From: Pirellulaceae bacterium
GTDB taxonomy: Bacteria; Planctomycetota; Planctomycetia; Pirellulales; Pirellulaceae
DNA length: 64,000 nt
NCBI GenBank assembly: GCA_022448315.1
Contig: JAKVCA010000017.1
Location: forward strand, 88,220-152,219
Direction: 5' to 3'
The position numbers and the translations under genes were made by a program. The notes beneath the pieces were generated by a model. That model was not told the origin of the DNA. It ran no database searches and was given only the letters and a program-made list of their open reading frames with translations. Positions within the stretch are counted from its first letter, which is position 1; each line of letters begins with the position of its first letter. This document shows positions 2,281 through 8,611 of this stretch, one piece after another.

Positions 2281-2708
2281 CTTTGGCGACGGTCCACACA
2301 TCGGAGTAAGTGGCTTCTCCAGGCCAATCGCCACCCCTATAATACAAGGGTAAAGATTATTCAGGTAGTGAAGGCCATCGTGTTGTTGTTTGGCGACGAC
2401 GCTCACTGCCTTGCCCTCGACAGGTACCACATTTCCTTTTTTCGTCGTGTTTCTCTAATCAGGTCAAAAATGGGCGGCGAAATTCGAATGATCCGTCGTT
2501 AAGTGGACGAACCAATCCGGTTTCATAAAGGAACCTGTCGGTTGGGATGTGGTGACCTATTTGACCATCGGGTGGTGTCAGGGTCACGGTCGACAGGAAA
2601 AGAATAACTACGGCTGCCATTGTTCATGCGGCGTTTTCCTGACTCGTTTCTGTGGGATCAGATTCTCGGCGGTCAAGGTGAGGATCCGTAATTAGGGAGG
2701 GGCTTGTG
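2281..2708. other. Intergenic stretch before the NfeD pair
   Basis: No convincing gene here. A perfect TATAAT hexamer sits at 2338-2343, without a clear -35 box at 17 bp spacing; if it is a promoter, the leader to the NfeD gene would be about 360 nt. A good ribosome-binding site, AGGGAGG, is at 2694-2700, eight bases before the ATG at 2709. The open frames crossing this stretch start inside the preceding gene or terminator and look random. Confidence 0.4.
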
Positions 2709-4904
2709 ATGGTGACTTGCACACGAATGCGCATGTTGTCGATGACATTTTTCTGGTGCCTTCTCAGCATCCATATCGACTCCACACACGCTCAAGCTTT
2801 GTCAGACGCAAAGGACTTGCGAGAAGGCTTCCTCGTGCAGGTTCCCTTGCCCATCACGGGTGATGTTGACCTTCAGGTCCGAACGATGATCGAAAAAACA
2901 CTGGAGAATCTCCCGGTGGTCGAGGCGGCCGAAGATCGTCCTGTCCTCGTCCTGCAGTTCGATACATCGACGGGAAGAAGCGGGCGAGGGAGTCAGTTTG
3001 AGCGATGCATCTCCTTGGCCCGATTTCTCACAAGTCGAGCACTGAACAAGGTGCGGACGATTGCCTACATCAAGGGCGGCTCAGATTCCTCGCCTTTGTC
3101 AGGGCACGCATTGCTGGTGGCCCTCGCTTGCGAACGTTGGTATGCCAATGAAGATGGCGGCATCGGCAGTGTGGGTGAAGAACCTGAGGGTGATCAGTTG
3201 ATTCTCGATGCTTACCGATCTTTGGCCGCTCGACGTTTAGTGATTCCCGAGACGGTAATCCTGGGGCTTTTGGAACCTGCACGCGGGATTTTCCGAGTTG
3301 AGGCGGTGGACGGCTCCTTGAGTTTCGTCGATCGGGCGGAGCTTCAACGTATGGAGCAGGCCGGTCAAGTTGCAGTTGCAGAAACGCTGGTTGAGCCGGG
3401 TGAAGAGGCCGTGTTTTCGTCGGACCTCCTTTTTCGATTTCAGCTGATCGAACAACGAATTTCTGACCGCCGCGATTTGGCGAGCCGACTCAATCTGCGA
3501 CCAGAAAGTCTCGAAGGTGATCCGAGCCTTGGGGCCTCATGGAACGCCATTCAAATCGAGCTAAAAGGCCCCATTGATCAAACCCAGGTCTCATGGGTTT
3601 TGGCGGCCCTCCAACAGCGATTAAGTGAGGGGGTCAACCTGATCATCATCGCAATCGACAGTGGGGGCGGGTCGTTTCGGGATGCCAATCGTCTTGCCCA
3701 GCAGCTTGGTCGCCTGGATCCATTGCAAGTTCGCACGGTTGCTGTCGTGACCCGCGAAGTTCGTGGTGCAGCGGCATTTGTGGCTTTGGCCTGTCAGCAT
3801 CTTGTCATGGAAGAATCTGCAGTCCTTGGGGGTAATGGACAGCCCCCATTTGCAGAGGATGATCGTCGCAATTTGGTTGAAGTGACGCCCGACTTGGCCA
3901 GAGCCCTCGAACGTGATGAATCGATCTTTCTTGCTTTGACCGAACCGGGGTTTCCTCTTACCCAATATCGGCATGAGGTGACGGGGGAGACCCGTTACTG
4001 GTCGGAGGAGCAATACGAACAATTGGCGGAACCAACTCTTTGGCAGAAAGTACGAGAGGTTTCCGTCTCTGAAGGTTTGACGGCGACGCAGGCAGATGAT
4101 GTCGGGATCGTTCGTTATCTGGTCAAGGATCGCAGCGAGGTTGAGGCACTTTATCAACTGGAAGAATCGCCGGAACTTCTGGTTCCAACGGCAGCCTTTC
4201 GCGGGATCCAGAGGTTTGCGAAGTTTCTGGCTTCTCCGTGGATTTCATGGATGCTGCTTTTCGGTGCAATGATGTTTTTCTCCACGGAGCTTTCGAGTCC
4301 GGGATTGGGCGTTCCCGGTTTTGCAGCCGCCGTTTGCTTCATGCTCTTCTTCTGGTCGCAATACTTGAATGGCAATGCAGACTGGTTGGAGATCATGTTG
4401 TTTGCTCTGGGCGGACTGAGTTTGGCACTCGAAATTTTTGTGGTGCCCGGATTCGGAATTTTCGGTGTCGGGGGCATTCTGATGATGCTCGTGTCAGTCA
4501 TTCTTGCTTCTCAAACTTTTATCTGGCCAACTACCCAGGAGGATTATTCTCAACTGCCTATTTCTCTTTCGATGGTCTTTGCCTTGTTTTTCGGTGTTGC
4601 GACACCCATGATGTTGATACCTCGCTACATGAATCGAATTCCGATCCTTCGACGACTCTCCTTGAATCCCGCAGAGGATACCGAGTTCGCTGAAGTTGGT
4701 TCCAGAGAGGCAATTCTCCAGTTGGATTATTTAAAAGGCAAAGTCGGAATCGCGGTTACGTCACTCGTCCCGGGAGGCAAGGTGAGGTTTGGGGATGAGA
4801 TCTACAGTGTCGTTACTGATGGTCGGCCAATTGATGATGGGGACCATGTGGTTGTCCGCGAAGTTCGAGGAACCCATGTGGTCGTGGAACCTGTCGACCT
4901 TTAG
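2709..4904 (+). CDS. NfeD-family membrane protein with two ClpP-like domains
   Basis: 731 residues. The ATG at 2709 is preferred over GTG 2706 because AGGGAGG lies 8 bp upstream. Order of parts: signal peptide (1-30); a ClpP/SppA-like domain (about 40-200) with a PLSGHALLVAL stretch where NfeD1 proteases carry the nucleophilic Ser; a second ClpP-like domain (about 285-400) with a clear beta strand and IDSGGG turn, but RGAAAFVAL where the Ser should be; a cluster of hydrophobic segments (about 500-640); and a C-terminal OB-fold-like NfeD domain (KVGIAVTSLVPGGKVRFG). NfeD1 proteins are membrane-bound serine proteases thought to work with stomatin/flotillin proteins. A second NfeD gene follows 36 bp downstream, so the two are probably cotranscribed. 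Whether the protein is an active protease is uncertain. Confidence 0.85.
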   Translation: MVTCTRMRMLSMTFFWCLLSIHIDSTHAQALSDAKDLREGFLVQVPLPITGDVDLQVRTMIEKTLENLPVVEAAEDRPVLVLQFDTSTGRSGRGSQFERCISLARFLTSRALNKVRTIAYIKGGSDSSPLSGHALLVALACERWYANEDGGIGSVGEEPEGDQLILDAYRSLAARRLVIPETVILGLLEPARGIFRVEAVDGSLSFVDRAELQRMEQAGQVAVAETLVEPGEEAVFSSDLLFRFQLIEQRISDRRDLASRLNLRPESLEGDPSLGASWNAIQIELKGPIDQTQVSWVLAALQQRLSEGVNLIIIAIDSGGGSFRDANRLAQQLGRLDPLQVRTVAVVTREVRGAAAFVALACQHLVMEESAVLGGNGQPPFAEDDRRNLVEVTPDLARALERDESIFLALTEPGFPLTQYRHEVTGETRYWSEEQYEQLAEPTLWQKVREVSVSEGLTATQADDVGIVRYLVKDRSEVEALYQLEESPELLVPTAAFRGIQRFAKFLASPWISWMLLFGAMMFFSTELSSPGLGVPGFAAAVCFMLFFWSQYLNGNADWLEIMLFALGGLSLALEIFVVPGFGIFGVGGILMMLVSVILASQTFIWPTTQEDYSQLPISLSMVFALFFGVATPMMLIPRYMNRIPILRRLSLNPAEDTEFAEVGSREAILQLDYLKGKVGIAVTSLVPGGKVRFGDEIYSVVTDGRPIDDGDHVVVREVRGTHVVVEPVDL

Positions 4905-4940: not shown

Positions 4941-5522
4941 ATGGACCCGATTTACTGGGTGATTCTGCTCCTGTTGAGTGGTTTCATTTTGATGGTGCTT
5001 GAGTTCTTCGTCCCTTCCGCCGGGAGTCTGGGTGGTCTTTCGGCGATCTGTCTGATTGCAGCCATAGTGATGGCGTATTCCATCGGCGCACCGGCAGGAA
5101 CAACGGTTCTTCTGCTGGTCCTTGTGGGCGTCCCAATTGTGCTGGCTGGGATGATTAAGATATGGCCCTACACGCCAATTGGGAAACGACTATTTCTCAA
5201 CCCTACTCCGCCGGATGATGATCCTGTGCAAGTTGATCTTCAGCAGTATGTCGGACGTGTCGGGGTGGCGACGACACCCATGTTGCCGGCCGGTATGATT
5301 CGGATTGATCGTTCCTCTTTTGACGCACTGGCCGATGGAGAGGCCATTGAGAAAGGCGAAAATGTAGTGGTGAAAGGAGTGCGGATGAAACGCCTCGTCA
5401 TTCGCAAGGCGGCTTCCTATGAGGCCTCTCGTCCGAGGGTACCGGGACCTGATGAGGCCAAAGATGACCTCCTTGCTCGTCCCATTGATGAATTTGGAAT
5501 TGAATCCTGGGATGAGACCTAA
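4941..5522 (+). CDS. Short NfeD-family membrane protein
   Basis: 193 residues. Three closely spaced hydrophobic segments (residues 5-30, 33-50 and 53-73) are followed by a soluble C-terminal domain with the NfeD OB-fold pattern (YVGRVGVATTPMLPAGMIRID...FDALADG..IEKGENVVV). This is the short, protease-free NfeD type, which usually partners a flotillin/stomatin-like protein in membrane microdomains. The IGKRLFLNP segment just after the membrane part is also present in the upstream protein as LRRLSLNP, which supports homology between the two. No flotillin gene follows; the next gene is convergent. Short NfeD proteins have no known enzymatic activity. Confidence 0.85.
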   Translation: MDPIYWVILLLLSGFILMVLEFFVPSAGSLGGLSAICLIAAIVMAYSIGAPAGTTVLLLVLVGVPIVLAGMIKIWPYTPIGKRLFLNPTPPDDDPVQVDLQQYVGRVGVATTPMLPAGMIRIDRSSFDALADGEAIEKGENVVVKGVRMKRLVIRKAASYEASRPRVPGPDEAKDDLLARPIDEFGIESWDET

Positions 5523-5604: not shown

Positions 5605-6633
5605 TTATTCGGAAACGTGGAACCGTTTGCGAAAGTAAGCCTGCTGTTCATCCGTTAGCATGGAAATCTGTTTAGAGGTCAATGGGTTCTCTGATGAAAA
5701 TTTGGCAGCTTGCTGGTTTTGTTCATCGATGAATGTCGCGCCGAAAAGTGAGGCATTTCGAAAGGAAGCGTCAGATAAATTCGCTCCACAGAAGTCGGCG
5801 CCCTCCAAATCCGCATCGTCGAACTTGGCACCGGTGAGATCGGCATGGGCCAAGTTGGCGTTAGAGAGGTTGGCAGAACGGAAGTCTGCGCGGATCAGCG
5901 ATGCCGAACGAAAGTTTGAATCCCGAAGTTTTGAGCCTTGAGCTTTGAGTCCGTCGAGTCGACGATCTTGAACGTCAAACCCTAGCAGTTTCTGTTGGGT
6001 GATGTCGAGCTTCTGAATGAGTGTAGAAACTTCTTTCTTTGAGAGTTGGCTGGCGATGTACCGTTCTTCCTTCCAGGGATCAGCGTGGTTGTGATACCCC
6101 GACTCTCTTTCCCAGTAGCCTAGACGGTCTTGCACCAACAACTCGATTCGTTCGAGCCACTTCAGGCTCTTGTAGAAGTATTTGCCCGGCGTGATGAGAC
6201 GCAATGGGCCCCCATGTTCCTTGGTAAGGGGGACGCCATCCACCTCCCAAGCAACCATTGGCTGGATTCGTTGGATATCCTTCAAGGAAAGGGATGTTGA
6301 GTGGTTCCTGTCGCTCCGCGCCACGAAACTTGCGAATTTGATGTCCGAGTTTGGCCGAACTTCTTTCATTAAACGGAGCAAGGGAACGCCCGTGACTTTC
6401 ATGTCGAACTTGGACCAACGCGTGACACAATGGATGTCAAGTGTCTGGTCGATTTTGAATCCTTGTTGGAGCTCCGTAAGAGACCATGTGCGTGGGGCCG
6501 AACAACCTCCCTCGATACTCAAGGTCCATGGGCGATCCCAGTCACTCGGCGGAAGTTCACCGACCAAGGGCCACTTGTCCGCTTTCACAAGTTGTTGCCT
6601 TGGCGGTAATCTCGATGCCTTAGGATCGTTCAT
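5605..6633 (-). CDS. Molybdopterin oxidoreductase fused to pentapeptide repeats
   Basis: 342 residues. Residues about 20-190 match the sulfite-oxidase/YuiH Moco domain. HCVTRWS (Cys69) supplies the thiolate ligand of the molybdenum, GGPLRLITPGKYFYKSLKW is the conserved pterin-contact region, and GYWERESGYH closes the domain. Residues about 225-301 are a run of pentapeptide repeats of the A(D/N)Lxx type (ADFRS ANLSN ANLAH ADLTG AKFDD ADLEG ADFCG ANLSD), predicted to form a right-handed quadrilateral beta helix. There is no signal peptide, so a cytosolic location is expected, unlike periplasmic MsrP. No membrane or heme partner is adjacent. The fusion is the unusual part; the substrate is unknown. 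Confidence 0.88.
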   Translation of the reverse strand: MNDPKASRLPPRQQLVKADKWPLVGELPPSDWDRPWTLSIEGGCSAPRTWSLTELQQGFKIDQTLDIHCVTRWSKFDMKVTGVPLLRLMKEVRPNSDIKFASFVARSDRNHSTSLSLKDIQRIQPMVAWEVDGVPLTKEHGGPLRLITPGKYFYKSLKWLERIELLVQDRLGYWERESGYHNHADPWKEERYIASQLSKKEVSTLIQKLDITQQKLLGFDVQDRRLDGLKAQGSKLRDSNFRSASLIRADFRSANLSNANLAHADLTGAKFDDADLEGADFCGANLSDASFRNASLFGATFIDEQNQQAAKFSSENPLTSKQISMLTDEQQAYFRKRFHVSE

Positions 6634-6703: not shown

Positions 6704-8611
6704 TCAATTGAGTTCCATAGCCTCTTCCCAGTGTTCGTACAGTGAGGCGAGCCGAACTTGCTCGGAGGACAGTTCTTCCTGGGCTTGTTTGATACGCTCG
6801 CCATTTCGCAAAATATCTGGGGAGGCAAGTTGCTCGTGAAGGTGCCCAACTTTGTCCTCGCAAGCGGCAATTTCTGCTTCGAGCTCCTCCACTTTGCGAT
6901 AGGGAAACTTACGTTTTCTTTTTGCGGGTTTGGTGGGCTCATCTTGGCGACCCGACTTTGGAGATACCGTTTTTTTACTCTGCGACGCGTGGGTTGCCTC
7001 TCGCGCCAGCCCCGAGGCTTCCAGGTTTTTGAACGTCTCGTAGTTGCCTTCGATCACCTGGAAGCGGCCATCACCGCCGACCACGATCAGATGATCTGCC
7101 ACTTCGTTGATGAAATATCGATCATGGCTGACGAACAATACGGAGCCGGTAAAGTTGGAGACAGCTGCTTCCAAAGCTTGTCTCGCCCAGAGATCAAGAT
7201 GGTTGGTCGGCTCGTCCAGGATAAGAAAGTTGGCGTCTGAGCCCGCCAGTTTTGCGAGTGCAACCCGATTCCGCTCACCCCCACTGAGTTGATTTACCGA
7301 TTGAAACGCCATGTCGCCAGTGATGCCAAATCGGGCCAGTAGATTTCGTCTTTCTACTTCAACGGTCGCCCTGTGTTCAGGACGGACGGCCTCTTCGGCA
7401 TCGACGTTGTCTGGAACACATTGAAGTTGTTGGTCGAAGTATCCAACTTTGACACCTTGGCCAAGACTTACACGTCCCTGATCGCAGGGGAGTTGCCCCA
7501 GAAGACATTTGAGCAATGTCGTTTTCCCGGAGCCATTGGGACCGAGGATTCCCCATTTTTCCCCTCGCAGGAGATCAAACGTGAGCTTCTCGAATAACGG
7601 CTCATCCGAAAAGCTTTTCTCAATCCTCTCTACTCTGAGGACAATGTCACCGGTCCGCGAAGCGTCTGCAAAGCCCATGACTGGCGAGGTGATTTCTCTT
7701 GGCGGAGCCACCAGTTCGATGCGTTCCAGTTTCTTTCTTCGATCTTCAGCCTGAGCATGTTTCTGACCGTGATGATGACGTCGTACAAAGTCCTCCAGTT
7801 TCTCGATTTCTGACTTCTGCCGGTTATAGGTCTTGCGTTCGATTTCGACACGCTCAGCTTTCAGTCTCAGGTACTTCGAATAATTCCCCGGGTAGGAATC
7901 GATGGTTCCTTGGAAAAGCTCGAGAGTTCGATTTGCAACATTATCCAGCAGGTAGCGATCATGGCTGATGAGCAAGATGGCAGAGGATGACTTCCGGAGG
8001 AACTCTTCCAGCCAGACCGTTGCCTCCACGTCCAGGTGATTTGACGGCTCGTCGAGAAACATCAGGTCAGGCGACTCAAGTAGGAGTTTCGCCAGCAACA
8101 GGCGGTTTTGCTGACCCCCACTCAGGGTCTCGACGCGTTGCTTGAAGGTATCTCTGGTGAACTGCAGACCTTCGAGGACTTTCTCAACTCGATGGTCAAG
8201 CTGGTAGGCGTCTTGCTGCTCCAGTTCCGCATGCAATCGATCGAGTCGACTCGCGATAGCTTCGTATTCTGACTCCCGAGCTTGTCCGAGTTCCTTCGCC
8301 AGACGTTCCGCCTCCTCTTGCAGTTTCAGCAAGGGCTCCAGAGCGGAAAATGCTTCTTCCCAGAGCGTCTCATGCTTGAATTCAGGGTGCTGCTCGAGAA
8401 CTCCACATTTGGCCCCGGGTTGGTAGGTCACTGAACCGGCATCGGGTTCAACTTCACCGGTAAGAATACGGAAGAGTGTGGTTTTGCCGGCGCCATTTGG
8501 CCCAACAAGGGCCACATGTTGTCCTGCCCGGATTTCGAAACCTGCACCATCCAACACGGGCTCGGGGCCAAAATATTTACGAATCCCTTCAACATTCAGC
8601 AGAACGGACAT
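6704..8611 (-). CDS. ABC-F family ATPase, Uup-like
   Basis: 635 residues with two ABC ATPase domains and no membrane segment. The first has Walker A GPNGAGKTT (about residue 37), signature LSGGQQNRLLLAK and Walker B LMFLDEPSNHLD. The second has GPNGSGKTT, LSGGERNRVALAK and FLILDEPTNHLD. The linker between them is strongly basic and helical (RRHHHGQKHAQAEDRRKK). The last 70 residues form a charged coiled coil (RKVEELEAEIAACEDKV), typical of Uup/ABCF3-like proteins. ABC-F proteins act on the ribosome or, for Uup, are linked to branched DNA intermediates and ribosome assembly. Some confer antibiotic resistance, but nothing here points to that. No obvious ribosome-binding site precedes the ATG. 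Confidence 0.9.
   Translation of the reverse strand: MSVLLNVEGIRKYFGPEPVLDGAGFEIRAGQHVALVGPNGAGKTTLFRILTGEVEPDAGSVTYQPGAKCGVLEQHPEFKHETLWEEAFSALEPLLKLQEEAERLAKELGQARESEYEAIASRLDRLHAELEQQDAYQLDHRVEKVLEGLQFTRDTFKQRVETLSGGQQNRLLLAKLLLESPDLMFLDEPSNHLDVEATVWLEEFLRKSSSAILLISHDRYLLDNVANRTLELFQGTIDSYPGNYSKYLRLKAERVEIERKTYNRQKSEIEKLEDFVRRHHHGQKHAQAEDRRKKLERIELVAPPREITSPVMGFADASRTGDIVLRVERIEKSFSDEPLFEKLTFDLLRGEKWGILGPNGSGKTTLLKCLLGQLPCDQGRVSLGQGVKVGYFDQQLQCVPDNVDAEEAVRPEHRATVEVERRNLLARFGITGDMAFQSVNQLSGGERNRVALAKLAGSDANFLILDEPTNHLDLWARQALEAAVSNFTGSVLFVSHDRYFINEVADHLIVVGGDGRFQVIEGNYETFKNLEASGLAREATHASQSKKTVSPKSGRQDEPTKPAKRKRKFPYRKVEELEAEIAACEDKVGHLHEQLASPDILRNGERIKQAQEELSSEQVRLASLYEHWEEAMELN

Follow-up and report, generated by a model that had tools for sequence, protein, structure and literature searches.

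The window, a 64,000-nucleotide stretch of Pirellulaceae DNA, contains a gene in which a Moco oxidoreductase domain of the sulfite oxidase type runs straight into a block of pentapeptide repeats. This locus raises two questions: whether the two parts belong together, and what a pentapeptide beta-helix would do on a redox enzyme. Enzymes of the sulfite oxidase fold, pentapeptide helices and enzymes that include a pentapeptide domain have each been known before, and for most pentapeptide-repeat proteins no biochemical function is known.

Layout of the fusion gene

The gene lies on the minus strand, which the sequence-only note had left unstated, and starts with an ATG, its open frame extending three codons further upstream; the features along it are collected in Table 1. 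Pfam searches placed both domains well above their cut-offs: Oxidored_molyb (PF00174) matched with 104 bits against a cut-off of 24 and covered profile positions 5-169 of 169, and Pentapeptide (PF00805) matched from residue 235 onward with 62.6 bits against 20.2. The Moco domain, which carries the cofactor motif GGPLRLITPGKYFYKSLKW and has Cys69 within HCVTRWS, is thus complete, as an earlier reading of the sequence alone (the sequence-only reading) had claimed. Downstream of it the same search returned pentapeptide families only, and no C-terminal dimerisation domain. The repeat block, put at about 75 residues in that reading, is indeed present but longer, the structural model giving about 95 residues in 19 strands, from about 210 to 300. 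Beyond it, L326 and Q330 of the C-terminal cap region are invariant in alignment A1. At the other end of the chain, a hydrophobic N-terminal stretch is absent over the first 60 residues (maximum 17-residue mean hydropathy 0.04), in agreement with the earlier statement that there is no signal peptide, and the fusion protein is, judged by its sequence, probably cytosolic.

Table 1. Features of the fusion locus, with positions in the window
Feature	Position	Strand	Basis or remark
Moco oxidoreductase / pentapeptide-repeat fusion gene	5605..6633	-	342 aa plus stop; 28 full-length homologues in 97 relatives
Sulfite-oxidase-fold Moco domain, residues 28-174	6112..6552	-	Pfam PF00174, E 7e-30; best fold matches YedY 1xdq, SorA 2blf, Z about 19.5
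Cys69 codon, predicted Mo ligand	6427..6429	-	Conservation in homologues
Conserved Moco-domain tail, residues 175-195, GYHNxADPWxEER	6049..6111	-	Highly conserved
Beta-helix N-terminal cap helix, residues 199-208	6010..6039	-	AlphaFold model, DSSP
Pentapeptide-repeat quadrilateral beta-helix, residues 209-303	5725..6009	-	Pfam PF00805, E 2e-17; model
C-terminal cap helices, residues 320-337 (320-324, 328-337)	5623..5676	-	Model; match to 3n90, 2g0y
ABC-F-type ATPase, upstream neighbour	6704..8611	- (same as fusion gene)	Pfam

The continuity of the frame, also claimed earlier, is borne out by comparison. Full-length, co-linear homologues with 45-53% identity and no internal stop were found in 28 of the 97 other relative genomes, split evenly between the window's family (14) and other families of its order (14). 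These homologues rule out a chance fusion, as well as the frameshift or assembly error between the two parts that the sequence-only reading had named as one possible refutation. The fusion of a Moco domain and a pentapeptide beta-helix is genuine.

Distribution and ancestry of the fused proteins

Proteins with both domains, which the sequence-only reading had proposed to count, were also sought in 392 genomes drawn from the phylum. Eleven of these carry a clear fusion, and a twelfth (G204) carries a divergent fused form with degenerate repeats. In this divergent locus (L161, G204:C1:5628700-5631400) the planctomycete Moco domain has ECVSAG in place of HCVTRW, and the degenerate pentapeptide region is followed by about 100 extra C-terminal residues. 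A scan of 84,980 species found fused loci, among the matches listed, in at least 11 phyla (Planctomycetota, Myxococcota, Fraserbacteria, Pseudomonadota of the alpha and gamma classes, Armatimonadota, Binatota, Zixibacteria, Verrucomicrobiota, Chloroflexota, Actinomycetota and Acidobacteriota), with many of these genomes being metagenome bins whose single phylum assignments may be wrong. The fusion clade is also present in cultured Rhodopirellula and Stieleria species. Judged by these homologues, the fusion is a conserved family and not a single curiosity. One Pseudomonadales copy (L078) lies on a 4.36 Mb contig (CATOTI010000002.1), and the protein that this megabase contig encodes is nested among planctomycete ones, a placement that suggests transfer between phyla.

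An unrooted tree of the Moco domain alone, whose stand-alone proteins are limited to those that our queries had found, has a single branch with the fused rows on one side and the stand-alone rows on the other. This branch has an SH-aLRT of 99 with 114 rows; with 66 rows and a careful method its support is 100/99, and it occurs in all 200 bootstrap trees examined. Because the tree splits fused from stand-alone proteins at 100/99, one origin is the simplest reading, and the sequences probably descend from one fusion event. Fused and stand-alone copies occur together in 1 of 98 genomes (Fisher p = 0.036, kinship ignored); since this p value ignores relatedness and two of the 11 fused genomes of the phylum sample hold both, we do not rely on an avoidance between them.

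The sequence-only reading had allowed that the pairing might turn out to be a common and well-described architecture. Widespread it is; a description, on the other hand, was not found in the literature searched, and the pairing may already be catalogued in InterPro or Pfam without comment. Similarly, none of the NCBIfam models reaches its cut-off on the window protein. The Moco-pentapeptide fusion thus appears to be undescribed.

The predicted Moco site and its nearest relatives

The Moco half matches YedY, SorA and SoxC in fold, with Z scores of 19.0-19.6. Sulfite oxidase and the sulfite dehydrogenases dimerise through an Ig-like domain, and heme domains or subunits are common among them. Sulfite oxidase, SorA, SorT and SoxC share the Moco-domain fold and the Cys ligand with the fusion protein, which instead has the pentapeptide helix after its Moco domain and scores far below their equivalog cut-offs. 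YedY/MsrP (1xdq), a periplasmic methionine sulfoxide reductase, has the same Moco fold (Z 19.4, with 26% identity over 178 residues) and a Cys ligand and, like the fusion protein, has just one Moco domain and lacks the dimerisation domain of sulfite oxidase. However, YedY is a Tat-exported protein with the membrane cytochrome YedZ as its partner (PMC4228395), whereas the fusion protein, probably cytosolic, has no hydrophobic N terminus that could serve as a YedY-type Tat signal, has no such partner adjacent and carries the pentapeptide helix. It also misses the MsrP equivalog cut-off, with 64 bits against 207.

The nearest relatives of the Moco half, at 34-44% identity, are small stand-alone Oxidored_molyb proteins ("sulfite oxidase-like", about 190-240 aa). 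These have the HCVT and YHxxxDPW motifs in common with the fusion protein, but their chains end 6-27 residues past the YHxxxDPW motif. Several stand-alone homologues, mostly myxobacterial (L096, L099, L101, L102, L105-L107 and L109), begin with a hydrophobic twin-Arg segment and, in contrast to the fused clade, look exported.

Cys69 does not vary in alignment A1, and its conservation is at least 90% in the fused set and in the stand-alone set alike; the HC(V)T motif was present in homologues read individually, and distant members with CVTGW or CVTSW keep the Cys as well. Both sets keep H68, C69, R145, K155, S156, K158 and W159, among others. Three positions separate them. Specifically, residue 111 is H in 100% of the fused proteins and Y, W or F in the stand-alones; residue 114 is S in 96% of the fused proteins and N in 32 of 33 stand-alones; and residue 154, inside the cofactor motif RYFYKS, is Y in 99% of the fused proteins and W in all stand-alones. 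By their position in the sequence, H111, S114 and Y154 may line the Mo site. The fused proteins form a separate clade of putative cytosolic Moco enzymes with a Moco-domain signature of its own.

The fold and the conserved cofactor motif suggest that the protein binds Moco of the plain molybdopterin type, with Cys69 as the ligand. A different role for the same fold is known from PruR, a pterin sensor that matches the Moco half with a Z of 14.7 and frequently carries a molybdopterin oxidoreductase annotation (PMC13259868). PruR, however, has a Trp in place of the Mo-ligand Cys, is about 170 aa long and is periplasmic (PMC13259868). Because they lack this Cys, PruR-like sensors are a poor model for the fusion protein, which keeps it, has no signal peptide and so displays neither of the traits that define PruR (loss of the Cys and periplasmic location); that it is a sensor of this kind and not a Moco enzyme is very improbable.

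In the window genome, searches found MoaC and two MoeA; a contig end additionally carries the N-terminal half of MoaA (L142, G000:C63:3-476), and these genes refute the idea that Moco biosynthesis is missing. A search for the C-terminal MoaA domain found nothing here because the assembly breaks within moaA, at the contig end. Among the fused relatives, MoaA was found in 27 of 28, the exception (G049) being an 86% complete genome. The fusion gene is the sole PF00174 member of the window genome, which has two other Moco enzyme candidates, one of the DMSO reductase superfamily and one of the xanthine dehydrogenase type. No case was established in which the fusion is a genome's only Moco enzyme; fused genomes have other candidates.

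The beta-helix, its conserved face and the gene neighbourhood

The structure of the full chain, whose prediction the sequence-only reading had also proposed, was modelled with AlphaFold from 29 homologues (pLDDT 90.8, pTM 0.82); a distant Chloroflexota member, about 41% identical, gave a pLDDT of 95.2 and a pTM of 0.89. DSSP of the window protein's model finds the strands at five-residue spacing, making about 4.75 coils. With these 19 strands and the Pfam match, the protein has the eight or more consecutive repeats, forming a quadrilateral beta-helix, that define the pentapeptide family. Since pTM values of 0.82 and 0.89 for a two-domain chain imply a confidently predicted relative position, the models suggest a fixed arrangement of the two domains.

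The best fold matches of the C-terminal half are At2g44920 (3n90; Z 18.8 over 133 residues, matching residues 201-341) and Rfr32 (2g0y; Z 18.6 over 125 residues, matching residues 208-340), thylakoid-lumen pentapeptide proteins without known function (PMC8145042). Like the fusion protein, these Rfr-type proteins have about five beta-helical coils closed off by capping helices, but they are free-standing and exported, whereas the fusion's helix is part of a probably cytosolic enzyme. MfpA matches less well (Z 14.6). The sequence-only reading had proposed that the helix could be a docking or DNA-mimic-like surface, and the second half of this proposal fared badly. Gyrase-protecting pentapeptide proteins act as long rods through their DNA-like shape and charge (PMC8145042), and the fusion's helix does have weak similarity to the Qnr and MfpA models (E about 1e-7), although at about 30 bits it misses their equivalog cut-offs of 240-460 by far. 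Compared with those rods, the helix is short, with fewer than five coils, capped at both ends, and weakly charged (net charge about -3 in the window protein, with family tails from -13 to +6); its nearest folds are the Rfr-type lumenal proteins, and it is conserved on one face only. A DNA-mimic or gyrase-type surface attached to the enzyme is therefore extremely improbable.

Of the five residues in each pentapeptide repeat, i and i-2 face the inside of the helix, while i-1, i+1 and i+2 face outward. Over 80 dereplicated fused proteins, the outward positions of one face average 3.23 bits, as against 1.89, 2.15 and 1.69 on the other three (permutation p = 0.008). The conserved face carries a ladder of R237, N255, S257, N258, D275, E277, G278, S295 and G298; residue 237 is R or K in 80 of 80 proteins, N255 and D275 are each kept in 78 of 80, residue 277 is E or D in all, and G278 is kept in 79 of 79. 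Furthermore, the N, D, E and G residues of the face show little or no variation in an alignment headed by the Chloroflexota member. A single strongly conserved outer face is what would be expected of an interaction surface, and to this extent the earlier docking proposal holds.

Based on the sequences and models, we give an even chance to the following reading. The protein would be a soluble, cytosolic, Cys-ligated Moco oxidoreductase of the sulfite oxidase fold, and its C-terminal beta-helix, occupying the position of the sulfite oxidase dimerisation domain, would be packed in a fixed position on the Moco domain. The Arg/Asn/Asp/Glu ladder on one of the four faces would be the functional surface, either lining the access to the Mo site or holding a substrate or redox partner there. 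In its stronger form, which we consider unlikely, the helix would be integral to the catalytic unit, its face lying over the Mo site beside H111, S114 and Y154 and shaping the substrate pocket. If true, the fusion would stand as a class of cytosolic Moco enzyme in its own right, and its helix would be the first pentapeptide fold known to us that contributes to an active site.

The same conserved polar face could instead be a docking platform that binds a separate redox partner or protein substrate and makes no contact with the active site. The protein has no fused electron-transfer module and would hence need a partner, and pentapeptide domains serve as binding scaffolds in ubiquitin E3 ligases (PMC8145042). 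One of these, NleL (3naw), is likewise an enzyme with a built-in pentapeptide domain (helix match Z 16.1), although it differs in enzyme and role and its enzyme parts are not homologous to the fusion's. We find a pure docking role somewhat doubtful, as no partner gene is linked across the fused family and the high pTM suggests a fixed packing on the Moco domain that would bury some of the surface.

The fixed packing can also be taken to mean that the helix is a stabilising or oligomerising cap and nothing else, put in place of the sulfite oxidase dimerisation domain, whose position after the Moco domain it matches, with a face conserved through packing. The high pTM of both models would fit such a cap, and MfpA-like pentapeptide proteins dimerise via their C-terminal helices (PMC8145042). 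Yet stand-alone homologues exist without any such domain, and the near-invariant charged residues D275 and E277 would, over eleven phyla, exceed usual packing needs, which leaves the cap distinctly unlikely. The role of the helix is directly testable, because in at least 11 phyla it is tied to a redox enzyme that can be assayed, with a mapped face and clear residues to mutate.

A neighbour gene common to the whole fused family was not found by neighbourhood comparison. In the window, the neighbours of the fusion gene are NfeD genes and, upstream, an ABC-F-type ATPase, in keeping with the earlier statement that no heme or membrane partner is adjacent; the ATPase is not conserved as a neighbour in the family. 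A recurrent neighbour is a Cys/Met metabolism PLP enzyme (PF01053, about 595 aa), directly 3' of the fusion gene and on the same strand in 11 planctomycete loci of about 97 fused (L005, L006, L018, L033, L036, L039, L056, L060, L065, L067 and L075). Its gene overlaps the fusion stop codon in some loci and lies within about 0.5 kb in the rest, and its copies are 65-75% identical to that of L036, with an N-terminal extension of about 135 aa. Loci L006 and L018 come from family f3 and group with L033 in the Moco-domain tree. Counted by genome, the enzyme turned up in 7 of 29 fused relatives, as against 9 of 69 non-fused ones, and the window genome lacks it. We therefore rejected it as a conserved partner: it recurs only in some Pirellulales and hardly tracks the fusion genome-wide. 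Where it does lie downstream, it hints at a sulfur-centred substrate (an S-oxide, sulfite or similar), which we take as a lead and no more.

Fatty-acid-synthesis and ATP-synthase genes lie near several other loci, and are not shared by L033 or L039. In the window itself, the two adjacent NfeD-family genes (2706-4904 and 4941-5522, plus strand) differ in length: the first encodes a long, NfeD1b-like protein whose N-terminal half resembles a protease, the second a short NfeD protein.
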